Positions 10,082 to 31,120 of a DNA stretch of 64,000 bases are shown piece by piece; the first letter of the stretch is position 1, and each line of letters opens with the position of its first letter. The stretch covers positions 2,597,501 through 2,661,500 of the forward strand of contig NZ_CP083952.1 of the NCBI RefSeq assembly GCF_006442545.2, read 5' to 3'. The position numbers and the translations under genes are program-made. Origin of the DNA: Mesorhizobium sp. B2-1-8. GTDB taxonomy: Bacteria > Pseudomonadota > Alphaproteobacteria > Rhizobiales > Rhizobiaceae. A model generated the notes under the pieces. The model saw nothing but the letters and a program-made list of their open reading frames with translations, was not told the DNA's origin and did no database searches.

Positions 10082-10103
10082 TATGTCACAGCATGACATA
10101 TAT
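10082..10103 (-). promoter_or_regulatory. Operator-like palindrome TATGTCA-N5-TGACATA (copy 1)
   Basis: TATGTCA (10082-10088), CAGCA, TGACATA (10094-10100), followed by TAT. Read on the minus strand the 22 bases match the site at 31099-31120 with two differences, both in the spacer. It lies upstream of the DUF982-type gene in the same orientation as the other copy lies upstream of marR. Confidence 0.65.
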
Positions 10104-10259
10104 GCATGAGAGCGGCGCCCGACAAGGTGTTCGAATTTCCAAGGCCGATTCTCTGTGTCGGAACATTGGCTACCCAGGATGGCCAGGCTGACATGGGTTC
10201 CATGGCTCCCCATACTCATGACGATCCTGCGACTTTGCGACGGACGATTGATCATCCAT

Positions 10260-11108
10260 TCACCGGTGACCCATGCCCCAGGCATGGCGCAATGAGGCGG
10301 GGGTTCGGATTGGCCGTCCAAAGCCTCGGAGCATACGCGCGACAGTATCGACCAGAAATGCGTTGGTGGGCGCCGTCGAACCGTCCGGCAGCAGAAGATT
10401 GTTCTCGAAGCCGACCCGGACATCTCCACCCAGCAGCGCCCCGGCGGACACGCAGGCAGCCTCGTCGCGGCCGAAGGCGCAGACCATGAAGGAACTGAAG
10501 GCCGGAATACCTGGCGAAAGAAACGGCAGCAGATCCATGGGCGCCGATTGCTGCGATGTCGTGTAGCGGCCAAGGACGAAGAGCACGGGAATGTCGTCCC
10601 AGGGGATCATGCCCCGCCGCTGTAGATCGCACAGGTACAGTGCCTCGCCGGGATCGTAGAGTATGATCTGCGGCAACACGCGTTCGCGCTTCAGCCAGCC
10701 GAGGAACGAGGCGAAAACCGGCTCGGCATCCCGGTCCGGGACAAGCTCGCGCAGTGCCAGCGAGACGGCCTCGGGCCTGGTCTCGCGAACCGCTTCCATC
10801 TGCCTGCCGGGCTGATAGACGCCAAGCGCCTCGCTGGTGATTTGCACCACCATTGCATTGCCAACCGTCCGTCGAATGGCGGCGGTGGCGGCGCGATAGG
10901 CGTCGGGGTCGAGAATGTGCCGGCCATCCCGGTCGCGCACATGCAGGTGAATCATGGCCGCGCCGGCCTCGAGGCACTCGGCCGCCGTCCGCGCCAGTTC
11001 GGCCGGCGTCATCGGCAAGCCCGGATGGTCGGCCTTGCTGCGTCTGCCGCCATTCGGCGCGACGGCGATCGCGACGGGCCTGTCCGAGGATTGGGACTGC
11101 ATGCGCAT
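10260..11108 (-). CDS. Beta-keto acid cleavage enzyme family protein (BKACE / DUF849, Kce-like)
   Basis: Predicted zinc enzyme of 282 residues. The founding member, 3-keto-5-aminohexanoate cleavage enzyme, condenses a beta-keto acid with acetyl-CoA to give an aminoacyl-CoA and acetoacetate; others act on different beta-keto acids. The metal-binding motif HLHVRD (His54, His56) and the distal GFENN segment near residue 235, matching the family's zinc-ligand Glu, are both visible. The family's extended active site and N-terminal strand (AIAVAPNGGRRSKADHPGLP) also fit. It is divergent from an RpiR regulator-aminotransferase-TRAP operon, suggesting a shared catabolic route. The exact substrate is unknown. 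Confidence 0.85.
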   Translation of the reverse strand: MRMQSQSSDRPVAIAVAPNGGRRSKADHPGLPMTPAELARTAAECLEAGAAMIHLHVRDRDGRHILDPDAYRAATAAIRRTVGNAMVVQITSEALGVYQPGRQMEAVRETRPEAVSLALRELVPDRDAEPVFASFLGWLKRERVLPQIILYDPGEALYLCDLQRRGMIPWDDIPVLFVLGRYTTSQQSAPMDLLPFLSPGIPAFSSFMVCAFGRDEAACVSAGALLGGDVRVGFENNLLLPDGSTAPTNAFLVDTVARMLRGFGRPIRTPASLRHAWGMGHR

Positions 11109-11140
11109 ACCGGTGGCTGGACAATTGGATCACCAACATA

Positions 11141-11157
11141 ACTTGTGAAACACTTGT
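11141..11157. promoter_or_regulatory. ACTTGT direct repeat in divergent promoter region, candidate RpiR operator
   Basis: Two ACTTGT hexamers (11141-11146 and 11152-11157) lie 11 bp apart, one helical turn, inside the 83-bp gap between the divergent BKACE and RpiR genes. The position fits an autoregulatory operator. No match to a published consensus is claimed. Confidence 0.35.
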
Positions 11158-11191
11158 TGCAAACGAAATCGATGCGCGGCAGACTGCCTCG

Positions 11192-12076
11192 ATGGACCAG
11201 GGGCCCTTGGCGGAACGCATCGTCGCGGAGTTCGACGGCATGTCGGCGCAGCTGCAGACCGCGGCTCGCTACATGCTCGACCATCCGAGCGACGTGGCCT
11301 TGCTTTCCATGCGCGAGCAGGCGCGGCAGGCGGGGGTGCAGCCGGCCACCATGACGCGTCTGGCCCAGCATCTCGGCTTCGAAGGATATGATGTCGTGCG
11401 CGATTCCTACGCCGCGGCGGTGCGCAGCGGATATCCCGGCTTTGCAGGAAAAGCGGGGGTCCAGCTGCGCAGCCAGAAGCTCAAGGGCGACCGCGCTCAA
11501 GCCGCCGAGATGCTGGACTCGCTAGCCGCCCAGTTCGCCCAGCTTGCCAGGCCAGATAGGCTGGACCGCATCGTGGCTGCGGCGAGACGGCTCTCGGCCG
11601 CGCGCCGGATCTATTGCCTCGGCCTGCGCTCCAGCCATCCTGTCGCCTGGCATATCCACTATGTCCTGTCGCTCGTTGGCGAGAAATCGGTGCTGCTCGA
11701 CGGCGTGGCCGGAACCGGTGCCGACGCGATTGGCCGCGCCACCAATGACGATGTGCTGCTCGTGGCGAGCGTGCTCCCCTACACCCGCCAGACGGTCGAG
11801 GTCGCCGAATATGCGGCCGGACGCGGTGTCTGCGTCGTCGCGATCACGGACAGCGAGGTGGCGCCGCTCGCCCAGATCGCGGCCGAGGTCATCCTCGTTC
11901 CAACGCAGACCCCATCCTTCCTCCACACCATGGCGCCGGCCTTCGCCGTAGCGGAAATCCTGGCAGCGGTCGTCGCCGGCCATGGCGGCGAGCAGGCGCT
12001 GGCGGAGATACGACGCACCGACGAACACCATGCGGCGCTCAATGTTCACCTGAAACCGCGGCTCGGCAAGAAATGA
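11192..12076 (+). CDS. RpiR-family transcriptional regulator (HTH + SIS domain)
   Basis: A 294-residue regulator with an N-terminal RpiR helix-turn-helix (MREQARQAGVQPATMTRLAQHLGFEGYD, ~residues 35-65) and a C-terminal SIS sugar-isomerase fold (RIYCLGLRSSHPVAWHIHY; VLLVASVLPYTRQTVEVAEYA) that normally senses a phosphorylated or related ligand. The ATG at 11192 is used because the HTH begins about 30 residues later as in relatives; the longer open frame upstream reads as antisense to the BKACE gene. The stop overlaps the aminotransferase start (ATGA). It probably controls both the downstream genes and the divergent BKACE gene. Confidence 0.9.
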   Translation: MDQGPLAERIVAEFDGMSAQLQTAARYMLDHPSDVALLSMREQARQAGVQPATMTRLAQHLGFEGYDVVRDSYAAAVRSGYPGFAGKAGVQLRSQKLKGDRAQAAEMLDSLAAQFAQLARPDRLDRIVAAARRLSAARRIYCLGLRSSHPVAWHIHYVLSLVGEKSVLLDGVAGTGADAIGRATNDDVLLVASVLPYTRQTVEVAEYAAGRGVCVVAITDSEVAPLAQIAAEVILVPTQTPSFLHTMAPAFAVAEILAAVVAGHGGEQALAEIRRTDEHHAALNVHLKPRLGKK

Positions 12077-13419
12077 CCCATCTTCTCCATCGCACCACCA
12101 AAGGTTCGCTTCCGATCGCCGTCGGCGGCAAAGGCATCCAGATATTCGACAGCGACGGCCGCTCCTACATCGATGCATCCGGCGGCGCGGCGGTGTCGTG
12201 TCTCGGCCACGGCCATCCCGACGTCATCGCCGCCTTGCATGAACAACTCGACCGCATCGCCTATGCCCACACCGGCTTCTTCAGTACGGAGGCGGCCGAA
12301 CGTTTGGCCGACCGCCTGGTTGAAGACGCCCCGGCCGGGATCAGCCATGCCTATCTCTTGAGCGGCGGATCGGAAGCGGTGGAGGCGGCGCTGAAGATGG
12401 CGCGGCAATATTTTGTCGAGAAAGGCGAGCCGCGGCGGCGTCACGTCATCGCCCGCCGCCAGAGCTATCACGGCAACACTCTTGGCGCGCTCGCCACGGG
12501 CGGCAATGAATGGCGGCGGCGGCAATTTCAGCCGCTTCTCATCGAAACCCATCATATCGATCCATGTTTCGCCTATCGCCATCAACTGCCTGATGAAAGC
12601 GATGCCGACTACGCAGCGCGGGCAGCACAGGCCCTGGAGGACAAGATACTCGAACTCGGCTCCGGCGAGGTCATCGCCTTTGTCGCCGAGACGGTGGTCG
12701 GTGCGACCGCCGGCGCCGTGCCGCCGGTGGCGGACTACCTGAAGCGCGTCCGCGCCATCTGCGACCGTTACGGCGTGCTGCTCATCCTCGACGAGGTAAT
12801 GTGCGGCATGGGCCGCACCGGCACGCTTCACGCCTGCGAACAGGACGGTGTCGTTCCCGATCTCATGACCATCGCCAAGGCGCTAGGCGGCGGTTATCAG
12901 CCCGTCGGCGCCGTGCTGCTCGGCCAGCATATCTTCGACGCCTTCGCCAACGGCTCCGGCTTCTTCCAGCACGGCCACACCTATATGGGTCATCCGATGG
13001 CCGCGGCGGCCGGCCTTGCCGTCCAGGAGGTGATCCGTCGCGACCATCTGCTCGACAACGTCAAGGCGATGGGCATGCATCTGCAACGGCGCCTGGGCGA
13101 ACGCTTCGGCAATAATCATCATGTCGGCGACATTCGCGGCCGTGGCCTGTTCCAGGCGATCGAACTGGTCGCCGACCGCGGTTCGAAGGAGCCTTTCGAT
13201 CCGGCGCTGAAGCTCAACGTCCGCATCAAGCGCGAAGCCATGAACAACGGCCTGATGGTCTATCCCATGGGCGGCACGATCGACGGCGTCAGAGGCGACC
13301 ATGTGCTGCTCGCGCCGCCGTTCATTTCCACCAGCCAGGACATCGATGCCATCGTCGAACGGCTCGGCGATGCCGTCGATGCAGCCTTGCGCGCTCCCGA
13401 CTTGGCGGGACGCGCCTGA
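12073..13419 (+). CDS. Class III (PLP-dependent) aminotransferase
   Basis: A 448-residue fold-type I aminotransferase of the omega/beta-alanine-pyruvate type. Visible landmarks are GGSEAVEAALKMARQY (PLP phosphate loop), RRQSYHGNTLGALATGG, the Asp-containing LLILDEVMCGMGRTGT and the PLP lysine in MTIAKALGGGYQPVGAVL. It would move an amino group from a substrate amine or beta/gamma-amino acid to a keto acid. Together with the divergent beta-keto acid cleavage enzyme it suggests catabolism of an amino-bearing compound that passes through a beta-keto acid. The start overlaps the rpiR stop by four bases. Confidence 0.92.
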   Translation: MTHLLHRTTKGSLPIAVGGKGIQIFDSDGRSYIDASGGAAVSCLGHGHPDVIAALHEQLDRIAYAHTGFFSTEAAERLADRLVEDAPAGISHAYLLSGGSEAVEAALKMARQYFVEKGEPRRRHVIARRQSYHGNTLGALATGGNEWRRRQFQPLLIETHHIDPCFAYRHQLPDESDADYAARAAQALEDKILELGSGEVIAFVAETVVGATAGAVPPVADYLKRVRAICDRYGVLLILDEVMCGMGRTGTLHACEQDGVVPDLMTIAKALGGGYQPVGAVLLGQHIFDAFANGSGFFQHGHTYMGHPMAAAAGLAVQEVIRRDHLLDNVKAMGMHLQRRLGERFGNNHHVGDIRGRGLFQAIELVADRGSKEPFDPALKLNVRIKREAMNNGLMVYPMGGTIDGVRGDHVLLAPPFISTSQDIDAIVERLGDAVDAALRAPDLAGRA

Positions 13420-13467
13420 CCAGAGCCCGGCGCAAGGCCGGACCAAACCACCAGAGAGGTAGTCGAA

Positions 13468-14436
13468 ATGCGTAGTCTGCTGAAAACCCTGATAGCCGCG
13501 GGCGCGGCGGGGTGTCTGCTTGCCGCCACACCCTCGTTCGCCGAGCAGAAGTTCATCACCATAGGCACCGGCGGCGTGACCGGCGTCTATTATGCCGTTG
13601 GCGGCGCCATTTGCCGGCTCATGAACAAGGACAGGCAGAAGACCGGCATACGCTGCTCGACCGAATCGACCGGCGGTTCGGTTTTCAACGTCAATTCGAT
13701 CAATACCGGCGACCTCGATTTCGGCCTTACCCAGTCCGACGTGCAGTTTCAGGCCTATAACGGCGTCGGCAATTTCGACGGCAAGGCGGTAAAGGATCTG
13801 CGCGCGGTCTTCTCGGTCCACCCCGAACCGTTCACCGTGCTGGCGCGGCCCGATGCGGGCGTGAAGACCTTCGAGGATTTCAAAGGCAAGCGCTTTAATG
13901 TCGGCAATCCCGGTTCCGGCACGCGGTCCTCGATGGAAGAGCTGTTGAAGCAGATGGGCTGGACCCTGAAGGACTTTTCGCTAGCCGCCGAGCTCAAGGC
14001 CGATGAGCAGGGCAGTGCGCTTTGCGACAACAAGATCGACGGCTTCTTCTATGGCGTCGGACATCCGTCAGCCGCGATCCAGGATCCGACGACCGCCTGC
14101 GGCGCCAAGCTCGTTCCGCTGACCGGCCACGCCGTCGACGCGCTGGTGAAGGCGCACCCCTATTATTCGGTCGCGACCATCCCCGGCGGCATGTACGCCA
14201 ACAATCCCGATCCGACGACGACGTTCGGCGTGCGCGCCACCGTGGTCACGAGCGCCAAGACCCCGGACGACGTGGTCTACGAAATGGTCAAGGCGGTTTT
14301 CGAGAACTTTGACGACTTCAAGAAGCTGCATCCGGCTTTCGCCAATCTCGACCCCAAGGAGATGATCAAGGCCGGCCTCTCGGCGCCGCTGCATCCCGGC
14401 GCCGAGCGCTACTACAAGGAAAAAGGCTGGCTCTGA
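13468..14436 (+). CDS. TAXI-family TRAP transporter solute receptor
   Basis: Periplasmic receptor of 322 residues. A Sec signal peptide ends near residue 26 (ATPSFA). The mature N-terminus [25 protein letters not shown] is the diagnostic TAXI motif that binds small acids such as glutamate or related ligands in characterised cases. [15 protein letters not shown] and GFLTQSD-like [12 protein letters not shown] follow. A GAGAGG ribosome site precedes the ATG. It lies 48 bp after the aminotransferase gene and 87 bp before the fused TRAP permease gene, giving a complete TAXI-TRAP system. Confidence 0.94.
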
Positions 14437-14523
14437 GCTTCAGCTGGGCCGGGCTGCCTGAAGGGCGGTCCGGCCACGGAGCCGAAAAGACCAAAATGAA
14501 AAAACAATCGGTCGAGGGGAACA

Positions 14524-17130
14524 ATGACAGACCAGTTCCGCAAGGCAGGAGCACCTGAAGACGTCGATATCGACAGACTGAACGAGATTGTCGCGGAAGC
14601 GGATACGGGCGGCCGCAAGCCGACCGGCCTGGCCGCGCATCTGGTCTTGGCGGTCGCGCTGGCCTGGTCGCTGTTCCAGCTTTGGTACTCCTCGCCGATC
14701 CCTTTCATGCTCGGTTTCGGCGTCGTCAGCGACGGCATTGCGCGTTCCATTCATCTGGCCTTTGCGCTGTTCCTGGCGCTCGTCACCTTCCCCGCTTTCA
14801 AAAGCTCTTCACGCAGCCGCGTTCCATTGCCCGACTGGATCCTTGCCATAGCCGGCGCTGCGGCGGCGCTTTACCTCGTCGTCTTCTACGGCGAGATCGC
14901 CACCCGGCCCGGGCTCCCCACGACCGCGGATCTCGTCATCTCCATCATCGGCATCGTCATACTGATGGAAGCCGCCCGGCGAGCCGTCGGTCCCGCCATC
15001 ACCGTCATCGCCGGGCTGATGCTGATCTACATTTTCGTCGGCCCCTATATGCCCGGCCTGCTGGCGCACAAAGGCGCGACGCTGTCGCGCGCCGCCTCGC
15101 AGATGTGGCTCACTTCCGAGGGCGTGTTCGGCGTCGCGCTCGGTGTCTCGACCAACGTCGTCTTCATGTTCGTGCTGTTTGGAACGCTGCTCGAGCGTGC
15201 CGGGGCAGGCGGCTATTTCATCCTGCTTGCCTTCTCCGTCCTCGGCAAATATCGCGGCGGCCCCGCCAAGGCCGGGGTCGTCGCATCAGGCCTGACAGGC
15301 ATGATTTCCGGATCGTCGATCGCCAATGTCGTCACCACCGGCACCTTCACCATTCCCCTGATGAAGCGCGTCGGCTACACGCCGGTCAAAGCCGGCGCCA
15401 TCGAATGTGCCGCCGGCGTCAACGGGCAGATCATGCCGCCCGTGATGGGGGCAGCCGCCTTCCTCATCGCCGAATATGTCGGCATTTCCTATGCCGAGGT
15501 GGTCAAGCACGCCTTCTTTCCCGCGCTGCTTACCTACGGCTCGCTCTTCTATATCGTCGACATCGAAGCGATGAAGATGGGCCTGAAGGGCCTGCCGTCG
15601 CGCAGCCGCCATCCCGCCTTGCAAGGGGCGCTGCGCTCGCTGATGGGCATCTGCGCCTTCGTCATCCTGGCCGGACTCGTCTATTACGGCATCGGCTGGA
15701 CCAAGACCGCGTTCGGCAGCGCCGCGACCTGGATGATCGTCGCGGCGCTTGCCGTCGTCTATGTCGGTCTCGTCGCTTACAGGGCAAAGCATCCCGACTT
15801 GCCGCTCAACAGCCTCAAGGGCGATATCCTGGAAATTCCGCATTTCGGTGAGACGGCACGGACAGGCCTGCATTTCCTGCTGCCGGTGGTGCTCCTCATC
15901 TGGTGCCTGATGGTCGAGGAGCTTTCGCCCGGCCTTTCCGCCTTCTGGGGCTCCGCCGCCTTGATGGTATTGGTCGTCACACAGCGCCCGCTGACGGCGT
16001 TCTTTCGCAAGCAAGATCTCATGCCGCGTTGGCGCGAAGGTTTCGTCGATCTCATCGAGGGGCTGTCGGCCGCGGCGCGCAACATGACCACGGTCGGCAT
16101 CGCCACGGCGACGGCCGGCATCATCGTCGGCACGGTGCTGTTGACCGGTGTCGGGCTTGTGATGACCGAACTCGTCGAATTCATCTCGGCCGGCAGCTTC
16201 ATCGTCATGCTGCTGTTCACCGCCCTCATCTGCATCATTCTGGGAATGGGCATGCCGACCACGGCCAGCTATGTCGTCGTCGCCACGCTGATGGCGCCGG
16301 TGATGGTCGACCTCGCCGCGCAGAACGACCTGGCCGTACCGCTGGTAGCCGTGCATCTCTTCGTCTTCTATTTCGGGCTGATGGCCGATGTGACGCCACC
16401 GGTCGGTCTAGCGGCGTATGCCGCGGCCGCGATTTCGGGCGCCGATCCGGTCAAGACCGGCTTTCAGGGATTCAAGTACGAAATCAGGACGGCATTGCTG
16501 CCGTTCATCTTCATCTTCAACAACGGCCTGCTGATGATCGACATCCAGGGGCCGCTGGATTTCATCATGGTCATCGCCACATCGGCGCTGGCAATGGTGG
16601 CCTTTGTGGCGGCGACGCAGAACTGGTTCCTGGTTCGCAACCGGTGGTACGAGGCCATTGCGCTGTTGCTGATCTGCTTCACGCTGTTTCGGCCGGGCTA
16701 TTGGCTCGATCTGGTCGATGAGCCCTTTGTTGCAAAACCCGTATCGCAATTGAACCAGACGATCGATGCCACGCCCGCCGGTCAAGCGGTTCGTGTCAAG
16801 CTGAAGACGGTCAACATCAACGGCGACGAGATCGAGAAACTGATCAGGCTCGATCTCGCCGAAGGCAAAAATGCGGCGGAGCGGCTGGAAAGCGCGGGAC
16901 TGACCGTGAGTGCGCTCGGCGACACGATGACAGTCGGGATCGTGCGTCTCGGCAGCCAGGCGGCAAAATTCGGTCTGCAGCCCGGAGACGAAATCATCGG
17001 GGTCATGGTGCCGAGCAGCCGGCCGTCACGCTACTGGTTCGTGCTTCCGGCGCTCTTGCTGTTCGGGCTGGTTTTCTGGCTGCAGAGACGCCGAAGGGCG
17101 GATAGCCTGGCGGCTGCAGCAGCACCTTAA
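14524..17130 (+). CDS. TRAP transporter fused permease (DctQM type) with C-terminal DUF3394/PDZ-like domain
   Basis: An 868-residue inner-membrane protein that combines the small and large TRAP permease subunits, the usual partner of TAXI receptors. After a soluble N-terminus (~45 residues) come the DctQ-like helices, then the DctM-like domain with GVVASGLTGMISGSSIANVVTTGTFTIPLM and GMGMPTTASYVVVATLMAPV. Residues ~730-845 are soluble and include AAERLESAGLTVSALGD and GLQPGDEIIGVMV, the PDZ-like DUF3394 region, followed by one last helix. It uses an ion gradient for uptake. The gene ends convergently with the small membrane-protein gene on the other strand, overlapping by four bases. Confidence 0.94.
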   Translation: MTDQFRKAGAPEDVDIDRLNEIVAEADTGGRKPTGLAAHLVLAVALAWSLFQLWYSSPIPFMLGFGVVSDGIARSIHLAFALFLALVTFPAFKSSSRSRVPLPDWILAIAGAAAALYLVVFYGEIATRPGLPTTADLVISIIGIVILMEAARRAVGPAITVIAGLMLIYIFVGPYMPGLLAHKGATLSRAASQMWLTSEGVFGVALGVSTNVVFMFVLFGTLLERAGAGGYFILLAFSVLGKYRGGPAKAGVVASGLTGMISGSSIANVVTTGTFTIPLMKRVGYTPVKAGAIECAAGVNGQIMPPVMGAAAFLIAEYVGISYAEVVKHAFFPALLTYGSLFYIVDIEAMKMGLKGLPSRSRHPALQGALRSLMGICAFVILAGLVYYGIGWTKTAFGSAATWMIVAALAVVYVGLVAYRAKHPDLPLNSLKGDILEIPHFGETARTGLHFLLPVVLLIWCLMVEELSPGLSAFWGSAALMVLVVTQRPLTAFFRKQDLMPRWREGFVDLIEGLSAAARNMTTVGIATATAGIIVGTVLLTGVGLVMTELVEFISAGSFIVMLLFTALICIILGMGMPTTASYVVVATLMAPVMVDLAAQNDLAVPLVAVHLFVFYFGLMADVTPPVGLAAYAAAAISGADPVKTGFQGFKYEIRTALLPFIFIFNNGLLMIDIQGPLDFIMVIATSALAMVAFVAATQNWFLVRNRWYEAIALLLICFTLFRPGYWLDLVDEPFVAKPVSQLNQTIDATPAGQAVRVKLKTVNINGDEIEKLIRLDLAEGKNAAERLESAGLTVSALGDTMTVGIVRLGSQAAKFGLQPGDEIIGVMVPSSRPSRYWFVLPALLLFGLVFWLQRRRRADSLAAAAAP

Positions 17131-17459
17131 AGCACGTCGCGTTCGAGCGGATTCATGCGACGCGGTTCGGGCCTCTGCCTCACGCATGTCGCTGGCTTCT
17201 GTCCGTCATCGCCTTTCCTGGTCACGGGCCGGGCGATGCGGCTGACGGATCTGCGGCCGCGCCGGAATTGCAAGGCGCTGAGCCCGAATATTGCCCCGAG
17301 AGCGGCCCACAGGAAGGTGCTGAAGGTGAGCGGACTGGTAAGCCAGTCCAGCATGGACACCGCGTCGCCCGGCGCGGCGTAGGCGAGATAGCCAAGACTG
17401 GTCGACAGTGCAACGCCAGCACTCACCGCCAGTATGGTTTCGAAAATCGGTCTCGACAC
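17127..17459 (-). CDS. Small predicted two-helix membrane protein
   Basis: A 110-residue protein of unknown function with two likely transmembrane helices (ILAVSAGVALSTSLGYLAYAA and FSTFLWAALGAIFGLSAL, the first about residues 8-28) and a basic, arginine-rich cytoplasmic tail. It lies 86 bp downstream of the dctM gene on the same strand and could be the last gene of that TRAP operon. I recognise no family. The main doubt is that a short hydrophobic frame can arise by chance next to membrane-protein genes. Confidence 0.5.
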   Translation of the reverse strand: MSRPIFETILAVSAGVALSTSLGYLAYAAPGDAVSMLDWLTSPLTFSTFLWAALGAIFGLSALQFRRGRRSVSRIARPVTRKGDDGQKPATCVRQRPEPRRMNPLERDVL

Positions 17460-17545
17460 AGCGCCAAGGAACGCAAAAATGTGGCGCCATTCAAGCGCAA
17501 ACTATCAAATTCGATTGTTCCGCCGGCCTCGAATGGCCAAGCCAG

Positions 17546-18916: not shown

Positions 18917-18919
18917 CGC

Positions 18920-21843: not shown

Positions 21844-22410
21844 TTACAGCACCTCGCCGGGATAAACGCCCCACAAACCGATTTGCCTGACAAAGCCAGA
21901 CATCGGGCCCAACTCCACCGCGCACCATTGCCCGTCGCAGCGCGTCAGTTCCACGCGAACGCGAGGTTGGAGCAAGGCAGTTATGGGGCTGTCAATTGTC
22001 GGCTTCTTGCACAGCGCAAGGTCGTCCTTGGCCCAGGGCGCGACGATGCCGGTCCTGCGGCCTGAAAGCAGCGGTCCATAGATCCATCCGCTGGTTCCGT
22101 CCCAATCCCTTACCCTGCGCCAATTGCCATATTGCTGGTATATTTCCAGCGGGATGCCCGGCCGCGTAAAGACCCATTCAATGTCGTAGCCGACACCAGG
22201 CCCGACACGCAGATTGGCGGACGAAGCTTTCAGCGAGACAAAGCGGGGCAGAGGAAGAGCACCGGCCTCTGCTCGCAGTCCCGTCGTCGTCGCGGATGCC
22301 GCAAGCGATGCGGTCGCCAGAATGAAGCGAGCGAGCGCGACATACAAGTGATGTCTGATCTCCCCGCCGACCATTCGGAAACCGAAAGCAGCTCTCGATT
22401 TCATGCGCAT
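21844..22410 (-). CDS. Exported SH3-domain protein
   Basis: A 188-residue protein with an N-terminal hydrophobic segment (about residues 23-47) that looks like a signal peptide, then two SH3-like repeats: SLKASSANLRVGPGVGYDIEWVF with WRRVRDWDGTSGWIYGPLL, and a second one ending GQWCAVELGPMSGFVRQIGLWGVYPGE. This matches the bacterial SH3 (SH3_4-type) periplasmic proteins of alphaproteobacteria, thought to bind cell-wall or protein ligands. The exact start is uncertain, with ATGs at 22410, 22404 and 22371. It appears to be a single gene. Confidence 0.8.
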   Translation of the reverse strand: MRMKSRAAFGFRMVGGEIRHHLYVALARFILATASLAASATTTGLRAEAGALPLPRFVSLKASSANLRVGPGVGYDIEWVFTRPGIPLEIYQQYGNWRRVRDWDGTSGWIYGPLLSGRRTGIVAPWAKDDLALCKKPTIDSPITALLQPRVRVELTRCDGQWCAVELGPMSGFVRQIGLWGVYPGEVL

Positions 22411-22599: not shown

Positions 22600-23028
22600 C
22601 TATGAACCGTTCGTTTGATTCTGGGAAACGTCGTGAGCGGGTATCGCATCCATCGCAGCCAACTTGTCCGCGCACAGATCCGCGGCGCCGGGAGCATCCT
22701 TCTTCATGCCGGCCAGTTTGACCCACCCGCCATCGCTGATGAAACCATCTCTTTGATAGGAGGATGTTTCCTTTAGCTTGGCCAGATTCTGGCTCGCGTC
22801 GGACGCCGTGACGAACTTTTGGACACAAAGATTGGCGACCAGTTCCGCCCTCGCCTTGATGGCTGAGGTCTTCGCCATTTCCGCCGCTGTTCCTGCCAGG
22901 GTCCAACCGCCGGCGGTAAAACCGACGATCATCGTCAGCACCGCGGCGCCTACTACCGACCAGAACCAGATTGTCTTGGAAGGTTGGTAGTCGTCGAAGC
23001 GTTGCGACAGTGTTTGATTGTCCTCCAT
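22600..23028 (-). CDS. Hypothetical single-helix membrane protein
   Basis: A 142-residue protein with a short soluble N-terminus, one transmembrane helix (TIWFWSVVGAAVLTMIVGFTAGGW, about residues 19-42) and a probably periplasmic C-terminal domain containing two cysteines (NLCVQKF and ADLCADKL). The ATG at 23028 has AAGGAG upstream, which decides the start over one 33 bases earlier. I do not recognise a named family; similar short proteins with this layout are seen in rhizobia. Its neighbours give no functional hint. Confidence 0.72.
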   Translation of the reverse strand: MEDNQTLSQRFDDYQPSKTIWFWSVVGAAVLTMIVGFTAGGWTLAGTAAEMAKTSAIKARAELVANLCVQKFVTASDASQNLAKLKETSSYQRDGFISDGGWVKLAGMKKDAPGAADLCADKLAAMDAIPAHDVSQNQTNGS

Positions 23029-23061
23029 GGCTTTCTCCTTTCGACTATGACCTGAACGCAA

Positions 23062-23452
23062 CCCGATCGTTCGGGCTGGTGAAACGTTGCCGCGGGAAGC
23101 GGCCAGCAGTTAGGGAACGGGGAAGGGGAACCGGTTCTGACGGGCGGAGCTTCCGGACGCGAGCAAAAATCCGTTGGCGCCGGTCTTCGAACGCTCGCAC
23201 TAGACCCAGCATTTCAGCATAGCGACGTAGCGCTCGGGCACCTGGAGATCCTCCAAATGAGAAGGGCGGACGAAGTTCGCCTTGATGCTCCATATACCGA
23301 GGCCGATCGGAAACTATTCCAAGCCAGTCGCAATTTTGTGAATGGCAGGACGCCGACATGCTGGCTGTACGCCTGCATGGCCAGGCTGGCCAGGTGACCG
23401 GTTCAGCGGCATGATCTATGGTATTTCAGAAAATTTATGATATTTTTTTGCA
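23062..23452. other. Intergenic region with no supported gene
   Basis: A 390-bp stretch. A 104-residue frame on the minus strand (23045-23359) begins with ATG but shows no recognisable motif and overlaps the ribosome site of the preceding gene, so it is not called. The last 50 bp (23410-23452) are A/T-rich and probably carry the GntR gene promoter. Confidence 0.5.
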
Positions 23453-24148
23453 ATGCATGAAAACACGCAGAATTCGACAATATCTGAAACAACGTACCGA
23501 CAGATTCGCGCCGACATTATTTTCGGCCGACTCACACCCGGCGAAAAACTCAAGCTTGACAGGCTGAAAAACCTTTATGGCGCCAGCGTCTCTACCCTGC
23601 GCGAAATCCTAAACCGCTTGTCCTCCGACGGGCTGGTGACCGCCGAGGGGCAGCGTGGTTTCGAGGTCGCGCCAGTGTCACCTCAGGATCTGAAGGAAAT
23701 CGCCGCCTTGAGGCAACTGCTCGAATGCTATGCGATGGAGTTGTCGTTCGCCTCCGGCGACATGGATTGGGAAGGCCGCGTGGTCGCGGCGCACCACAAG
23801 CTTCAGCAAATGGAAAGGCGCATGATTTCAGGCGACCATTCGATTGCCAAGGAATGGAAGCGCTATGACTGGGAGTTCCACCAGGCATTGATCTCTGCCT
23901 GCGGCTCCAAGGTGCTGATGGATACGCATGCCGCCGTATTCGACAAATATCTGCGGTATCAAATGGTTTCATTGACGTTTCGCGGTCAGATCGCCGCTGA
24001 CGAGCATCGGCAGATGCTCGATGCGGCGTTGGCGCGCGACGCCATCACAGCCCAAATGGTGTTGCGCAAGCATGTCGAGGCAGGCGTCGAGCGCGGATTG
24101 CTGGCCAGCGCGCCCGAATTCCAGAAGAAGAAGGCCGGTTCGGCGTAA
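23453..24148 (+). CDS. GntR-family transcriptional regulator (FadR subfamily, FCD domain)
   Basis: A 231-residue regulator. An N-terminal GntR winged helix spans about residues 15-75 (LTPGEKLKLDRLKNLYGASVS and LREILNRLSSDGLVTAEG). The C-terminal helical FCD ligand-binding domain includes DLKEIAALRQLLE, the W-x-R-YDWEFHQALISACGS segment with metal-ligand-type Asp/His, and DEHRQMLDAALARDA. FCD regulators usually respond to small organic acids. It lies 142 bp upstream of a TRAP-AroE-DapA operon on the same strand and probably controls it. A broken relative lies at 21.6-21.8 kb. Confidence 0.92.
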   Translation: MHENTQNSTISETTYRQIRADIIFGRLTPGEKLKLDRLKNLYGASVSTLREILNRLSSDGLVTAEGQRGFEVAPVSPQDLKEIAALRQLLECYAMELSFASGDMDWEGRVVAAHHKLQQMERRMISGDHSIAKEWKRYDWEFHQALISACGSKVLMDTHAAVFDKYLRYQMVSLTFRGQIAADEHRQMLDAALARDAITAQMVLRKHVEAGVERGLLASAPEFQKKKAGSA

Positions 24149-24290
24149 CGCCCAGCTCAAGCGATATTGTGTCTGATAAAATGACAAATCTATGATGATT
24201 GCACTGTTCGTGGGTTGAAGCACCATTATGAACGTGGCATGGTTTGCCCAGACGGTTTGACCACCGCCCATGCAATTCAGGGAGGAAAGC

Positions 24291-25289
24291 ATGACCATCA
24301 CCCTCGATCGCCGCCGGTTCCTCGGCGGCTCCGCAATGGCATTTGCCGCCTTGTCCGTGATGTCGTCCGGCGCGAGGGCGCAGGACAAGATCACACTCCG
24401 GCTCTCGTCGCCGGCGACGCCTGGCGACCAGCGCGCGGTGGCGCTGACCGACGTTTTCGCCCCCGCGGTCAGCGCCTTCGCCACTTTCGAGCCACACTGG
24501 AACGCCGAACTGTTCAAGCAAGGCACCGAGCTGGAAGCAATCGCCCGCGGCAATCTCGAAATGTCGATCACCTCGGCGCAGGAACTGGCCTCGCTCTATC
24601 CCGAATGGGGGATATTCACCGCCGGCTATCTGCATCGTGACGCCGCGCATCAAAAGAAGGTTTTCGCGGCCGACTTCATGAACCCGATGAAGAAGAAGGT
24701 GGAAGATGAACTCGGCGTCAAGCTCTTGACGGTGATGTATCTCGGCCGCCGCCAATTGAACCTTCGCATCGACAAGGAAATCAAGACCCCGGACGATTTG
24801 GCCGGCGTCAAGCTCAGAATGCCCGGAACCGACGCCTGGCAGTTTCTGGGCAAGGCGCTCGGCGCCAATCCGGTGCCCGTGGCGTTCACCGAAATCTACA
24901 CCGCGTTGCAGACCGGTGCGATCGACGGGCAGGACAATCCGCTGCCATCCGACAAGGACTCCAAATTCTACGAGGTCACCAAGCAGATTTGCCTGACCAG
25001 CCACCTCGTGGACCTGAACTACCTCGCCTTTTCGAAGAAGGTCTGGGACGGCCTGGCACCGGATCAGCAGGCGGCGGTGCAGAAGGCGGCGGACGATGCG
25101 GCCGAGTCCGGACGGCAGAAGCAGCTGAAGCTGGAATCGGAACTCGAGCAGTTCTTCAAGGACAAGGGTTTGAAGGTCTACACACCCGACGTCGACGCCT
25201 TCCGCAAACATGTGCAGAAGGCCTATCTGGAGTCCGACTTCGCCAAGGACTGGCCGGAAGGCATGGTCGACAAGATCAACGCCCTCTGA
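24291..25289 (+). CDS. TRAP transporter DctP-family receptor
   Basis: Periplasmic receptor of 332 residues for C4-dicarboxylate-type or related acids. The Tat-like signal is LDRRRFLGGSAMAFAALSVM, cleaved near residue 32. The mature part shows ITLRLSSPATPGDQR, the arginine-bearing DLAGVKLRMPG segment that pins the ligand carboxylate, and EIYTALQTGAIDGQDNPLP, all typical. GGGAGGAAAGC precedes the ATG at 24291, so an earlier in-frame ATG at 24270 is rejected. It is the first gene of the operon dctP-dctQ-dctM-aroE-like-dapA-like. Confidence 0.94.
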   Translation: MTITLDRRRFLGGSAMAFAALSVMSSGARAQDKITLRLSSPATPGDQRAVALTDVFAPAVSAFATFEPHWNAELFKQGTELEAIARGNLEMSITSAQELASLYPEWGIFTAGYLHRDAAHQKKVFAADFMNPMKKKVEDELGVKLLTVMYLGRRQLNLRIDKEIKTPDDLAGVKLRMPGTDAWQFLGKALGANPVPVAFTEIYTALQTGAIDGQDNPLPSDKDSKFYEVTKQICLTSHLVDLNYLAFSKKVWDGLAPDQQAAVQKAADDAAESGRQKQLKLESELEQFFKDKGLKVYTPDVDAFRKHVQKAYLESDFAKDWPEGMVDKINAL

Positions 25290-25303
25290 GCCGGGAAAGA
25301 CCG

Positions 25304-25801
25304 ATGTCGGCAACCATCCGCTGGTTGCAGGCGCGGGCCGACAACGTGGCGGTGGCGCTTCTCGCCGCCATGTTCATCGCCTTCATCCTGCAGATATTCA
25401 CGCGCTACGTGATCAACGATCCGCTCGGATGGACACTGGAAGTATGCCTGACGACATGGCTGTGGCTGGTGTTCTGGAGTTCCGCATTCGTGCTCACCGA
25501 GCGCGACCATGTGACGTTCGACCTGTTCTACCTGATCGCCAGCCGCCGCATGCAGCGCGTCTTCGCGCTGATTTCGGCGGCGGCGATCGTCGCCGGGTTC
25601 CTGGCGGCGCTGCCGGCGACATACGAATACATCGCCTTCTACAAGATCAAGAAGAGCGCCACGCTGCGTATTCGGCTCGATGTGGTGTTCAGCGTCTACG
25701 GACTGTTCGCCGTCGCCGTCATCGTACGTTACGCCCTGCGCATATGGCAACTTGCTCGCGGCGGCGCGCCCGAACAGCATGACGAGGCGACACCGCTGTG
25801 A
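25304..25801 (+). CDS. TRAP transporter small permease (DctQ-like)
   Basis: A 165-residue four-helix membrane protein. The family signature is clear: VALLAAMFIAFILQIFTRYVINDPLGW then WLWLVFWSSAFVLTERDHVTFDLFY. It pairs with the large permease encoded next; its stop overlaps that GTG start by four bases (GTGA), implying coupled translation. The ATG at 25304 lies 14 bp after the receptor gene with GGGAAAGA in front. Confidence 0.93.
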   Translation: MSATIRWLQARADNVAVALLAAMFIAFILQIFTRYVINDPLGWTLEVCLTTWLWLVFWSSAFVLTERDHVTFDLFYLIASRRMQRVFALISAAAIVAGFLAALPATYEYIAFYKIKKSATLRIRLDVVFSVYGLFAVAVIVRYALRIWQLARGGAPEQHDEATPL

Positions 25802-27093
25802 CCGTCGCCTTCGCCCTTTGCCTGCTGGCGCTGTTCGTCCTTGCCGGGATCGGCACGCCGGTCGCCTATTCCATGATCGTGGCGGCGATCGTCTACCTTG
25901 CCGTGAAGGGCCAGGATCTGGGGCTTGCCGCAGAGCAGATCATCCAGGGGCTCTATGACGGTTTCATCATCCTGGCCGTGCCGCTGTTCATCGTCGCCGC
26001 CAACATCATGAACGCCGGCACGATCAGCGAGCGGTTGCTGGCCTTCTGCATGGCGATCGTAGGGCGCCTGCGAGGTGGGCTCGGGCATGTCAATGTCGTC
26101 GCCAATCTGATCTTTTCCGGCATGTCGGGTTCGGCGGTTGCCGATGCGGCCGGCCTCGGCAAGATCATCATCGAAATGATGACGAAAGATGGTCGTTATC
26201 CGCGCGGTTACGCCGCCGCCATCACCGCCGCCGCTTCGACCATCGGACCGATCATCCCGCCGTCGATCCCGATGGTGATGTACGCGCTGGTTTCGGATGC
26301 CTCGATCGGTTTCCTGTTCCTCGGCGGCATCCTGCCCGGCCTGCTGATGGGCGTGGTGCTGATGGGCCTCAACGCGTGGGTCGCCCGCAAGCGCGATTTC
26401 GCGGTCGAGGAAGCCGTGCCTCTGCGAGCCTTGCCGAAGGTGACGCTCAATGCATTTCCGGCGCTGCTTATGCCGGTCATCCTGCTCTACGGCATCTATG
26501 GTGGCGCGACGACGCCGACCGAAGCGGCGGCCGTGGCGGCCGCCTATGCGCTGATCCTGGCCGGCGTCTTCTACCGTGCGCTGAGCTGGCGGAGACTTTA
26601 CGCCATCCTTTCAGAAAGCGCGCGCTCGTCCGCGGCCGTCGGCCTGGTCATCGGCGGCGCCCTGATCTTCAACTACATCGTCGCCAGCGAAAACATTCCT
26701 GCCCACATGGCAGCCTCGTTGCAGGGACTGCACATATCCCCGCTCGCTTTCCTGTTCATGGTCAACGTGCTGCTGCTGCTGCTCGGCTGTCTGCTCGACG
26801 CGTCCACAATCATCCTGGTCATCGTACCGCTGTTCATCCCGACCTGCCGGCTGCTCGGGATCGACCTGGTGCATTTCGGCGTCGTCGTGGTGGTCAATAC
26901 CATGATCGGGCTGATCACGCCGCCCTATGGCGTCGTGCTCTTCGTCATCAATGCGACGACGCGCATTCCGCTGCGCGAAATCATCAACGAGATCTGGCTG
27001 TTCATCGGCGTGCTGGTCGTCGCGCTGCTGCTGATGATGCTGTTTCCGGAAATCGTATTGTGGCTGCCGAGGCAGTTCGGATACCAGGGATGA
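25798..27093 (+). CDS. TRAP transporter large permease (DctM-like)
   Basis: A 431-residue integral membrane transporter of the DctM family. Typical segments are LFVLAGIGTPVAYSMIVAA, MSGSAVADAAGLGKIIIEMM, TIGPIIPPSIPMVMYALVS, LYGIYGGATTPTEAAAVAA and GLITPPYGVVLFVI. It starts with GTG overlapping the dctQ stop and ends overlapping the start of the shikimate dehydrogenase-like gene (ATGA), so transport and metabolism are translationally tied. Confidence 0.95.
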   Translation: MTVAFALCLLALFVLAGIGTPVAYSMIVAAIVYLAVKGQDLGLAAEQIIQGLYDGFIILAVPLFIVAANIMNAGTISERLLAFCMAIVGRLRGGLGHVNVVANLIFSGMSGSAVADAAGLGKIIIEMMTKDGRYPRGYAAAITAAASTIGPIIPPSIPMVMYALVSDASIGFLFLGGILPGLLMGVVLMGLNAWVARKRDFAVEEAVPLRALPKVTLNAFPALLMPVILLYGIYGGATTPTEAAAVAAAYALILAGVFYRALSWRRLYAILSESARSSAAVGLVIGGALIFNYIVASENIPAHMAASLQGLHISPLAFLFMVNVLLLLLGCLLDASTIILVIVPLFIPTCRLLGIDLVHFGVVVVVNTMIGLITPPYGVVLFVINATTRIPLREIINEIWLFIGVLVVALLLMMLFPEIVLWLPRQFGYQG

Positions 27094-27974
27094 GCACGGC
27101 TCCGCACGATCGCCGAAGCGCCGGCCTCACCGGCCCGGTCAGGCTTGGGCTGATCGGCGACAACATAAAGCGCTCGCGTTCGCCGGACCTGCATCGTCTC
27201 GCCGGCCGACTCCTCGGTCTGGACGTCAGCTACGACCTCTTCATCCCGCGCGACATGGGCAAGGATTTCGACGCCGTATTCGACGCCTGCCGCGACAGCG
27301 GTCTTCGCGGCATCAATGTCACCTATCCCTACAAGGAGATGGTGGCCTCCAGGCTGCGCATAGACGACGAACTGACCAGACGGATAGGTTCGGTCAACAC
27401 GGTGCTGTTCGGGCCGCGGGGCGCAAGCGGCTATAATACCGACCATACCGGTTTCATCGCCGCCTATCGCGAGACTTTTGGCGACACGGCGCCGGGCAAG
27501 GTCTGCCTGATCGGAGCCGGCGGTGTCGGCAAGGCCGTGGCCTTCGGGCTGCTGGCGCTCGGCGCCGAGGCCCTGACTGTCGTCGACAGCGATGCAGAGA
27601 AGGCGCGCTCGCTTGCGACCGCGATCGCGACAGCCTCGCATGGCGCCGTCAAAACGTCATCCAGCGATGCTATCCGCACGGCGATGGGCGGAGCGGAAGG
27701 CGTCGTCAATTGCACGCCGCTCGGCATGATCGGCCATCCCGGGTCTCCGGTCCCGCCGGAAATGCTCGGAGCGCAGCGCTGGGCGTTCGACGCCGTCTAC
27801 ACGCCGGTCGACACGTTGTTCAAACGGCAGGCGGAGGCGGCGGGCCTCGAGGTGCTCAGCGGCTACGAACTGTTCTTCCATCAAGGCATCGACGCCTTCG
27901 GCATCTTCACGGGACAGGTGCCGGCCGATCTTGGCGCCTTGCGCCGAATGCTTCTCGAAACACCTCCCAACTGA
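27090..27974 (+). CDS. Shikimate/quinate dehydrogenase-like protein (AroE family)
   Basis: A 294-residue NAD(P)-dependent oxidoreductase. The substrate-binding serines lie in RSRSPDLHRL (~residues 28-35), the catalytic lysine in INVTYPYKE (~77), the Asp of the Asp-Lys pair in GYNTDHTGF (~114), and the Rossmann loop is GAGGVGKAVAF. The C-terminus has a normal FFHQGIDAF region. The start overlaps the dctM stop by four bases. Being cotranscribed with an importer and a DapA-like aldolase, it is more likely a catabolic paralogue acting on quinate, shikimate or a similar cyclic acid than the biosynthetic AroE. Confidence 0.9.
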   Translation: MSTAPHDRRSAGLTGPVRLGLIGDNIKRSRSPDLHRLAGRLLGLDVSYDLFIPRDMGKDFDAVFDACRDSGLRGINVTYPYKEMVASRLRIDDELTRRIGSVNTVLFGPRGASGYNTDHTGFIAAYRETFGDTAPGKVCLIGAGGVGKAVAFGLLALGAEALTVVDSDAEKARSLATAIATASHGAVKTSSSDAIRTAMGGAEGVVNCTPLGMIGHPGSPVPPEMLGAQRWAFDAVYTPVDTLFKRQAEAAGLEVLSGYELFFHQGIDAFGIFTGQVPADLGALRRMLLETPPN

Positions 27975-27990
27975 CCAAGGATTATCCGCA

Positions 27991-28923
27991 GTGTTCGACG
28001 ATCATCCCGTGCGCAAGAAAATCGGTGTCAGCGCGGCACTGGCGACGCCGTTCGACGATAGAGGCGCAATCGACTGGCCCCGTTTCGGCGCCCACGCCAA
28101 ATACCTTCTGGGGCAAGGCATGCGGGTGGTGACCGCCTTCGGCACGACCGGCGAAGGCATTTCCATTTCGACCTCGGCCCGCGCTCCGCTCTATGAGCGC
28201 ATGGCCGCCGCCGGGGTCGACGCGGGCGGTCTGGTCGAATGCGTTTACGGGCCGTCGTCGCAAGATGCGGGCGACCATGCCCGGCGATCACTCGATGCGG
28301 GTTGCGCCGGCATCCTTCTGACACCTCCCTTCTATTTCAAGCAGCCGACGGAGGAAGGTGTCTACCGCTGGTTCGCGGAAGTATTGGAACGTGTCGGACC
28401 GGCTTGCCGCGATGTCATCCTCTACAACATTCCAGGCTTGACCGGCGTGCGCATCGGCCCAAGCCTCGTCGCCCGACTACGGCTTGCGTTTCCGCAAGCC
28501 ATCGCCGGCGTCAAGGATTCCAGTGGCGACTGGCAGCAGACGACCGCTTTGCTGGCGGAACACCGGGATCTCGCCATCCTCGTCGGCCACGAAGGAGATC
28601 TGGCGCGCGCGGTGCGGGCCGGGGCCAGCGGTTCGATCAGCGGCGTGGCGAATTTCGCTCCCGACCTGATCGCGACGCTGGTGCGCGGGGAGGACGTCCC
28701 GCTGATCGATGACATTCTCGAAAGATTGCTCAAATTGCCGGTCGTGCCGGCGGTCAAGGCCGTTCTGGCCGTAACGACGGGCGACCCTGTCTGGTCACGC
28801 GTGCGCGCGCCCCTCGACCCGATCCATGACGTGGGCGGTTTGAGGGCTTGCGAAGAAATAGCCGTGCTGGTTCGAGATCGGTTACGGCCGGCGGAAGGCA
28901 GAGCGTCGCCAAGCGCTGGCTAA
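27991..28923 (+). CDS. Dihydrodipicolinate synthase/N-acetylneuraminate lyase family protein (DapA-like)
   Basis: A 310-residue class I aldolase-fold enzyme. GTTGEGISIS matches the GTTGE motif, the catalytic tyrosine lies in DVILYNIPGLTG and the Schiff-base lysine in AIAGVKDSSGDW. Family members condense or cleave pyruvate-containing compounds or dehydrate sugar acids. The GTG at 27991 with AAGGA upstream is the start. As the last gene of a TRAP-AroE-like operon it is more likely catabolic than for lysine synthesis. A 48-bp inverted repeat begins at its stop codon. Confidence 0.9.
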   Translation: MFDDHPVRKKIGVSAALATPFDDRGAIDWPRFGAHAKYLLGQGMRVVTAFGTTGEGISISTSARAPLYERMAAAGVDAGGLVECVYGPSSQDAGDHARRSLDAGCAGILLTPPFYFKQPTEEGVYRWFAEVLERVGPACRDVILYNIPGLTGVRIGPSLVARLRLAFPQAIAGVKDSSGDWQQTTALLAEHRDLAILVGHEGDLARAVRAGASGSISGVANFAPDLIATLVRGEDVPLIDDILERLLKLPVVPAVKAVLAVTTGDPVWSRVRAPLDPIHDVGGLRACEEIAVLVRDRLRPAEGRASPSAG

Positions 28924-28970
28924 TGCATGTCGCCCGGAAGTGTCCTCGGTTCCGGGATAACGACATGCAT
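28923..28970. repeat. Rhizobial-type interspersed hairpin repeat
   Basis: ATGCATGTCG (28923-28932) is repeated in reverse complement as CGACATGCAT (28961-28970). An inner pair CCCGGAA/TTCCGGG encloses a 10-base loop. No T-run follows on either strand, so a simple intrinsic terminator is unlikely. The ends ATGCATGTCG...CGACATGCAT recall a widespread intergenic repeat in Mesorhizobium and Rhizobium genomes; this is memory, not a search. Confidence 0.7.
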
Positions 28971-29138
28971 AAAATCAGAAGCTTTCAGCAGGTCGGGCGA
29001 ATCCCATTCGCCGCGACATGCTGTAGATCGGTCGAGAGGATCGCATATCCAATCCCCGGGCGACTAAACCGCCACTGGAGGGCGGGTCCGACCGTTTGCC
29101 ACCTCCGCCTGCGAAATGGCTCGCTGCAATTCCGATCG
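28971..29138. other. Short intergenic region between convergent genes
   Basis: Lies between the DapA-like gene and the end of the chloride-channel gene on the opposite strand. Apart from the repeat at its left end I see no gene or clear terminator here. Confidence 0.45.
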
Positions 29139-31010
29139 TCATCTGGGATAGATCTTCAGGCCGTCGGCTACGGAGTTGGCGACATGCTCCCTGGTGATGA
29201 CGCCGACAACGTCATCTTCTCGAGGGATTCCGTGTCCCTGCACGACGACGGCCATGAATGCGTTCTTCCGCCAAATCCGTTCGATCACGTCGGAGACGAT
29301 CATGTTCTCGCCGACAATCGTGTAGTCACGGCTGGCGATGTCCGCGAGCGTGACACCGGTATGCGCGCCTTCGAGCCCGCGCCGCAGCCCGGTGTTGACG
29401 CGGAGCACACCGAAGATCTGGCCATTTTTGATGACCACCACATGACGAAGTCTGCCCTCCGCTTCATGCTCACGCAGAAAACCATCGAAGCTGTGCTCCG
29501 CCTGCAGCACCAGGATGTCCGCATCCATCACTTCGCGGGCATGGCGGACCAGGAACATGTTGGCGTGCATCGCCTTGGGAATGGCACGCCCGCGGCGGAC
29601 CAGCTTCAACGTGTAGATGTTTTCACGCGAAAGCAGTCGTCGGACGCCGACACTGGTGGCAACGGCCAGGATCATCGGCATGACGATGTCATACTCGCGG
29701 GTCATCTCGAAGGTCATGGTGATGGCGGTCATCACAGCCCCCGTACCGCCGCCAACCATCGCCCCCATGCCGACCATGGCAAAGGCCGGAATGCTGAGGG
29801 GGATCGGAATGCCTGTCGCCTGCAGCAGCGCGGCGAAGCCGCCGCCCAAAGTGGCGCCCATGAACAGCGAAGGCGAGAAGATGCCGCCGGAAGACCCCGA
29901 GCCGAGACTGATCGATGTGGCTGCCGCCTTGCAAGCCAACAAAAGACCGAGCAGCCATACAGCCGAGGTGTGACCGACCAGGATGCTCTCGATCGTCGCA
30001 TAGCCCACGCCATCGACGTAATACTGTCCGAGCGTGACGAAGAGAACATACATCAGGAGCCCTAGCAGCAGCATTCCGAGTATGTGGCGCGTGTATCGCC
30101 CGGGGATTTTGTCGAACCAGTCCTCGGCCAAATGCAGGCTGCGGATGAAGCCGGCGGCCGCCACTCCGGTCACACCGCCGAGGGCGGCATAGAGCACAAG
30201 CAGCACGACTGCATTGCCATCCGTGGTCAGGGCCTGCAATGGCGGCACGGCAAATGCAGGCTGCGGGCCAATGAACCAGCGTCCCACGAAGGTCGCGGCG
30301 CCAGTTGCTATGGCGACCGGAAGGAAAGTGCTCACACTCACTTCGGGCATCATCAACTCGATGGCGAACATCACGCCTCCGATCGGCGTATTGAACGTAG
30401 CCGCTATACCCGCACCGGCACCCGCGGCGACCATCGCGATACGCTGGCCGACCGGCATGCGGATGATCTGCCCCAATGTCGATCCGAGCGCTGATCCGAT
30501 CTGGATTATCGGACCCTCGCGGCCAACCGACGAGCCACTGCCAATGGCAATGGCCGAAGCCAGCGACTTGACCAACGCCACGATCGGCCGAATTTTCCCT
30601 TCCCGATAGTAAATGGCGTCCATGACCTCGGGCACGCCGTGGCCTTTTGCCTCGGGCGCGAAATTGCTGACGAGGAACGTGACCAGGACGGCACCGATCA
30701 CCGGTGCCAGAATGATGAACCCGCCCCACCGGCTGGGCGCCGTGAACACGTTCGCGTCATATCCGACCGCGAAAGTGCCGTTGAAGAAGAGATTGTGGAG
30801 CAGCCCTATCAATTCGCGGAAGAGGACCGCGCCGAAACCGGTTACAATGCCAAGACCGAGCGCGAGGACGGTGAGAACCAGCAGGCTAAGCCGGTGGCTT
30901 TCTTCGTCTTCCATCGCTGCGCGATGCGAGGCATCTTGCGCGGAAGGTTTGCCGTCGTCTGATTCACCAGGTTTCGAGTTGCTGGACGTTGCCGTGTCGC
31001 CGCGTGCCAT
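29139..31010 (-). CDS. ClC-family chloride channel/transporter with C-terminal CBS domains
   Basis: A 623-residue membrane protein. The ClC selectivity motifs are present: GHGVPE (GSGIPE-type) near residue 125, GREGP with the gating glutamate inside GSGSSVGREGPIIQIG near 164, and GGIFSPSLF (GxFxP). About ten helices end near residue 440. A cytoplasmic region from ~460 to the end has two CBS-type segments (REVMDADILVLQ and ...DVIERIWRKNAFMAVVV) that usually bind adenine nucleotides. It moves chloride, probably in exchange for protons. It is divergent from marR, and the palindrome at 31099-31120 lies in their shared promoter region. Confidence 0.94.
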   Translation of the reverse strand: MARGDTATSSNSKPGESDDGKPSAQDASHRAAMEDEESHRLSLLVLTVLALGLGIVTGFGAVLFRELIGLLHNLFFNGTFAVGYDANVFTAPSRWGGFIILAPVIGAVLVTFLVSNFAPEAKGHGVPEVMDAIYYREGKIRPIVALVKSLASAIAIGSGSSVGREGPIIQIGSALGSTLGQIIRMPVGQRIAMVAAGAGAGIAATFNTPIGGVMFAIELMMPEVSVSTFLPVAIATGAATFVGRWFIGPQPAFAVPPLQALTTDGNAVVLLVLYAALGGVTGVAAAGFIRSLHLAEDWFDKIPGRYTRHILGMLLLGLLMYVLFVTLGQYYVDGVGYATIESILVGHTSAVWLLGLLLACKAAATSISLGSGSSGGIFSPSLFMGATLGGGFAALLQATGIPIPLSIPAFAMVGMGAMVGGGTGAVMTAITMTFEMTREYDIVMPMILAVATSVGVRRLLSRENIYTLKLVRRGRAIPKAMHANMFLVRHAREVMDADILVLQAEHSFDGFLREHEAEGRLRHVVVIKNGQIFGVLRVNTGLRRGLEGAHTGVTLADIASRDYTIVGENMIVSDVIERIWRKNAFMAVVVQGHGIPREDDVVGVITREHVANSVADGLKIYPR

Positions 31011-31098
31011 AAAAGATGCGCCCCGGAAAAGATGGACTGGAGGATGAAGGCCTGGGCCTTGCCAACCGAACCCGCTGGGTGATCGAGCTCAGCTTGAT

Positions 31099-31120
31099 AT
31101 ATATGTCATGCCATGACATA
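31099..31120 (+). promoter_or_regulatory. Operator-like palindrome TATGTCA-N5-TGACATA (copy 2), upstream of marR
   Basis: ATA then TATGTCA-like arm (31102-31108), TGCCA, TGACATA (31114-31120). With the central base ignored it is a perfect 19-bp palindrome. It ends 20 bp before the marR GTG start and lies about 90 bp from the divergent clc start. It closely matches the site at 10082-10103 and is the obvious candidate for MarR autoregulation. Confidence 0.75.

Follow-up and report, generated by a model that had tools for sequence, protein, structure and literature searches.

In Mesorhizobium sp. B2-1-8, a 19-bp palindrome is very probably, judging from sequence comparisons, the operator of a MarR-family regulator, since the motif tracks marR across genomes and a weight matrix singles out its two sites in the 64,000-nucleotide stretch of DNA analysed here (hereafter, the window). 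We consider it highly likely that, through this palindrome, the regulator represses its own gene together with the DUF4336 gene, probably a divergent ClC gene, and a DUF982 gene, and that a signal releases this set of putative envelope, ion and stress genes. The sequence of the two sites, their rarity, their conservation and their co-occurrence with the MarR gene are the observations on which this model was built.

The two palindromes and the genes beside them

The two sequences, ATATATGTCATGCCATGACATA at 31099-31120 (plus strand) and ATATATGTCATGCTGTGACATA at 10103-10082 (minus strand), are identical at 20 of 22 bases and have perfect TATGTCA-N5-TGACATA arms, as described in an earlier sequence-only reading of the window (Table 1). 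That reading also had both copies pointing in the same direction toward their downstream genes, a distinction that falls away because a palindrome has no real orientation. The further half-site that it placed at 48436 is in fact an isolated heptamer (48443-48449). The window has five such lone copies, with about three expected by composition, and this one hence carries no weight.

Table 1. Positions of the operators and of the genes considered, numbered along the window
Feature	Position (strand)	Details	Basis or context
DUF982 gene	9707..9955 (-)	82 aa, ATG 9955	Pfam, 2kpq profile match, structure model
Operator 2	10082..10100 (-)	TATGTCATGCTGTGACATA on the minus strand	In the BKACE/DUF982 gap; matrix score
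BKACE gene	10260..11108 (-)	Upstream of operator 2	
SH3-domain protein gene	21844..22410 (-)	Ortholog near marR in G022 and G148	SH3_4 Pfam match on the G148 ortholog
YQPSKT gene	22600..23028 (-)	Conserved hypothetical protein, membrane-type by eye	Operator before it in L086 and L119
ClC chloride channel/exchanger gene	29139..31010 (-)	Divergent from marR	Start 91 bp from operator 1
Operator 1	31102..31120 (+)	TATGTCATGCCATGACATA	Between divergent ClC and marR; motif scan, matrix score, island conserved in ortholog promoters
marR	31123..31692 (+)	Start at TTG 31123 or GTG 31141; clade A	Pfam MarR_2/MarR, alignment, tree
DUF4336 gene	31679..32440 (+)	Overlaps the end of marR	Same order in 5/5 Mesorhizobium marR loci

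Within the window alone the significance of the pair was weak when up to three mismatches were allowed, as at least two matches were obtained in 9 of 100 shuffles. The evidential strength comes from both sites being perfect and rare genome-wide. A genome-wide motif scan, the check that the sequence-only reading had suggested, returned two perfect copies of TATGTCA-N5-TGACATA in the 6.87 Mb of the genome, both of them the window sites, and no other copy at zero or one mismatch; 0.0036 perfect sites per genome were expected from base composition. We also scored the window with a weight matrix trained on 12 of 13 marR-proximal sites, all from outside the window's genome. Operators 1 and 2 scored 36.2 and 36.1, respectively (training sites, 23.5-38.8), and there was no other match with a score of at least 8 in the 64 kb.

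Operator 1 ends 2 nt before TTG 31123 and 20 nt before GTG 31141, and 126 nt separate operator 2 from the DUF982 ATG. No sigma-70 promoter passed the scan thresholds at either operator, and an overlap of the operators with promoter elements is presumed here. Being a perfect inverted repeat, the palindrome could in principle act as a transcription terminator or belong to a repeat element instead of being an operator, but a terminator search at both sites found none, the arms are AT-rich with no T run, the motif's position is close before start codons, and the genome has two copies of it, so that we give this explanation almost no credit.

The gene calls of the earlier reading held for DUF982, MarR, DUF4336 and ClC, except that marR may start at TTG 31123 and not at 31141. 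The MarR protein scored 40.5 bits with PF12802 (Pfam cut-off, 27) and 33.7 bits with PF01047 (cut-off, 24.6), and its 189-aa sequence has no cysteine, which excludes a thiol redox switch. The DUF4336 gene is likely co-transcribed with marR. The ClC gene is divergent from marR in 4/5 Mesorhizobium loci and was not found near marR in the fifth (G148); in another genus (L118) an operator precedes a ClC gene. We do not think that BKACE is regulated by operator 2; this gene is also found 9 kb from marR in G004, with a partial match 3 kb from marR in G148.

Co-occurrence of the palindrome with marR

We searched 146 Mesorhizobium genomes and considered as MarR orthologs the matches with E<=1e-30. Five genomes had an ortholog (G000, which is the window's own genome, G004, G022, G141 and G148), and four had the perfect motif, at six sites in total (two in G000, one in G004, two in G022 and one in G141). 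All four motif-bearing genomes were among the five marR-positive ones, the remaining 141 genomes had neither, and the reversed pattern, used as a control across the same 146 genomes, gave no match. Four of the six perfect sites are directly before marR; the other two precede the DUF982 gene in the window's genome and, in G022, the gene for the periplasmic binding protein of an ABC operon. In G148, a copy with two mismatches precedes an open marR of 174 codons, and the similarity-search match to this gene, as extended, included one TGA.

The second perfect operator of G022 (L049:14173-14191) lies before a set of ABC-transporter genes with homology to positions 4589-9635 of the window. At 7087-8937 of the window, ABC permease and ATPase domains are apparently fused, by eye, in a single ORF of 616 aa.

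Outside the genus, MarR orthologs were 45-54% identical over the alignment. Precisely, we considered 17 distinct ortholog loci (five from Mesorhizobium, G308, which is the L091 contig, G462, G505, G526, G404 and L084-L090), and we counted as an upstream site any sequence with at most two mismatches to TATRTCA-N5-TGAYATA. An operator palindrome shortly upstream of the regulator's own gene, a trait of the MarR family, was found in 14 of these loci in Rhizobiaceae, the window included, and it appeared as a conserved island amid the diverged flanks of the ortholog promoters. No site was found upstream of marR in L085, a Caulobacteraceae MAG, or in L102 (G404, the weakest ortholog), while L089 had two sites within 1.4 kb of marR, neither directly before it. 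With the stringent pattern TATRTCAYNNNRTGAYATA, 16 sites were found in 11 of the 14 other marR-positive genomes (about 89 Mb) and none with the reversed control. All 16 are within 6.3 kb of marR; operator 2, at 21 kb, is farther away than any of them.

The gap between the end of the operator and the start of the marR ORF was at most 20 nt in 13/14 loci and 215 nt in G462. The operator touches the first ATG of marR in G526 and ends 2 nt and 5 nt before the ATG in G141 and G004, respectively. For targets other than marR the gap, measured from ORF starts, ranged from 4 to about 128 nt. The distance of operator 2 from its gene is at the long end of this range, yet it is matched by those of the G022 ABC gene and the L119 hydrolase gene.

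Phylogenetic footprinting, which the sequence-only reading had also suggested, showed that the marR site is conserved among the orthologs and tracks MarR over the 146 genomes; the clade-A site before the DUF982 gene was seen in the window's genome only.

As binding of MarR to the palindrome is a prediction, and as the window holds further regulator genes, such as an RpiR-like one (by eye) next to BKACE, both marR and the DUF982 gene could be controlled by another regulator, for instance of the TetR or GntR type. We regard this as very improbable, because the motif follows the MarR ortholog from one genome to the next, accompanies marR in different genera whose neighbouring genes otherwise differ, and has a sister motif before the gene of a paralogous MarR (clade B, described below).

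In the relatives, the genes adjoining a site included marR, DUF4336, two ClC types, the YQPSKT family, a hydrolase-OsmC fusion, PRC-barrel proteins, an IalB-like protein, a cytochrome c gene, a PTS EIIA gene and a small 'MNDIAEV' protein with a secreted partner. The family names suggest that most of the target set in Rhizobiaceae would be proteins of the envelope, of ion transport or of a stress type. In Sinorhizobium kostiense, two overlapping clade-A operators (L084:14712-14745) form one 34-bp palindrome between the cytochrome c and PTS EIIA genes.

The YQPSKT family (YQPSKT...W.W...GFT.GGW) is a recurrent neighbour of this MarR. We found 141 relatives of it, none with a Pfam domain among the 120 listed. 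In the window, no operator was found before the YQPSKT gene or at the SH3-domain gene.

The DUF982 gene and a sister operator

The DUF982 protein of the window passed the cut-off of PF06169 (48.7 bits against 22.2). Its structure model (pLDDT 83.8) shows three helices along with two strands, and the fold agreed with that of its only convincing solved relative, 2kpq (Atu1219), which is an uncharacterised structural-genomics entry. The claim that the family had no assigned function agrees with our searches of the open-access literature and of structures, in which we found neither a function nor a regulator for it; in the open-access library, a single paper mentioned the family by name.

DUF982 genes are numerous, with 5 to 28 copies per genome in 15 genomes, and at least 4 of 15 marR-positive genomes had one within 4 kb of marR. 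By copy number, 0.28 such genomes were expected and P(4 or more) was 1.4e-4, but the 4-kb limit was a post hoc choice. With a limit of 25 kb, which takes in at least 5 of 15 genomes, that of the window among them, P was 0.019. Pfam confirmed the nearby genes in G148 (71.9 bits), G557 (53.2) and G308 (35.7). The fourth, in G022 (L049:18235-18663), lies roughly 3 kb from marR; its sequence is broken across reading frames, which gives it the look of a decaying gene.

No clade-A operator was found directly before any of these four genes, nor was one seen before a DUF982 gene in any genome other than the window's. This last point, which includes the other clade-A Mesorhizobium genomes, is what would be expected if only the marR site were a real operator and the DUF982 copy were a chance match or a relic of no regulatory effect, left for example by a rearrangement; the long gap between operator 2 and the ATG goes in the same direction, and BKACE, DUF982 and the ABC transporter are indeed shuffled among relatives. 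Against this, a perfect match is hardly expected in a genome of this composition and was absent from the 142 genomes of the genus without a motif match, operator 2 scores as high as the marR site, and it is intergenic, before a member of a family that is tied to this MarR group elsewhere. We consider a chance or relic origin unlikely, and we retain operator 2 as a putative functional site. The DUF982 link is well supported by these sequence comparisons and, for clade A, is seen in one genome. The regulon proposed in the sequence-only reading, which joined MarR, DUF4336, perhaps ClC and DUF982, thus survived the in-silico tests (scan, footprinting, and ClC and DUF982 contexts) as a predicted unit.

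A parallel came from a paralogous MarR clade B, with about 40% identity, present in most Mesorhizobium genomes examined for it. A sister operator, TATRTCG-N5-CGAYATA, was found before clade-B marR in 23/24 loci (matrix matches of at least 9), with none at L035. The perfect sister motif had 20 copies in 19 of the 146 genus genomes, with no match for the reversed control: 7 before clade-B marR, 8 upstream of a single group of DUF982 orthologs, at 16-18 nt from the gene start, and 5 in a convergent gap. The eight DUF982 copies were chosen for their perfect arms, so that constant arms alone are no evidence, and the proteins are at least 94% identical to the L063 member, itself included. What counts is that, of the 20 copies of so rare a motif, 8 lie at a DUF982 start. 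Among four examined members of the group, L062 and L063 have a perfect site and L064 and L077 a degraded one. Clade-B MarR was confirmed in two of the eight genomes with the sister motif before DUF982 (G004 and G015). By its sequences, the clade-B set of MarR, operator and DUF982 appears to be an independent parallel to that of clade A.

The five convergent-gap copies (L138-L141 and L148, at 1501) share TATGTCGGGCCGCGACATA, in two mirror-identical forms. The gap follows the end of a 478-aa ORF (NifA-like by eye) and has no start nearby; this is not a promoter position.

In a tree of 26 proteins, 15 from clade A and 11 from clade B, chosen from those retrieved, the two clades were separated with 100/99 support. 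The recognition helix has Gln (AVQL; residue 113 in 183-aa numbering) in 15/15 clade-A and Glu (AVEL or AAEL) in 11/11 clade-B proteins, and this residue tracks the TCA or TCG half-site, respectively, in a sample in which 2 of the 26 proteins had no recognised operator (L085 in clade A and L035 in clade B). Our hypothesis, drawn from this correlation, is that the Gln/Glu residue may read the TCA/TCG base.

Another upstream element was seen at many DUF982 genes. We scanned 160 bp upstream of 29 other DUF982 genes (L053-L081, which do not include that of the window) and found a GAAAC-N15-17-CGTT element at 13 of them, with 0.18 expected. It resembles the ggAAC-N16-cgTT element that an excerpt of PMC4167512 reports at stress-induced genes of Rhizobium etli. 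The element is of an ECF-sigma-like promoter type and would fit a stress role of the family.

Proposed mechanism and known systems

For the preferred model of a MarR repressor with two operators, we infer binding, repression, an inducer and a stress role as follows. A MarR dimer would bind the two TATRTCA half-sites just before the marR start and, once bound, would repress its own marR-DUF4336 transcript and probably also the divergent ClC gene. Operator 2 would place the DUF982 gene under the same repressor. The release of MarR, with induction of the set, could be due to a ligand, a pH change or an ionic signal, which is our guess, and not to a cysteine switch.

E. coli MarR, HpaR and OhrR are MarR-family autorepressors with palindromic operators. 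The window MarR is like them in its winged-helix domain, in the palindrome before its own gene and in a local regulon with a divergent neighbour. Its operator and its targets are not those known for the three systems, and it lacks the redox-active cysteine of OhrR. With the NCBIfam MarR-type models it reached 20-34 bits, far from their cut-offs of 121-250.

Another alphaproteobacterial MarR protein tied to stress is LdtR of Liberibacter, which is described (PMC3999280) as an activator linked to osmotic stress tolerance. The window MarR is proposed to be a repressor, and it scored 21.1 bits against the cut-off of 250 of the LdtR model, NF047395. The predicted regulon is a new one of a known kind.

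A broader idea, which we advance tentatively and with somewhat more doubt than conviction, is that the paralogous MarRs of rhizobia read the sister operators (TATRTCA-N5-TGAYATA and TATRTCG-N5-CGAYATA) via the Gln-to-Glu change and that each independently captured DUF982, which would be a dedicated effector of an envelope or ion stress response sensed by MarR. The two MarR clades, each with its sister operator, would also provide a small, clean test of a change in recognition-helix specificity. Hardly any work exists on the large DUF982 family, and the candidate regulator, the operator and the putative co-regulated set give a first regulatory handle on it.
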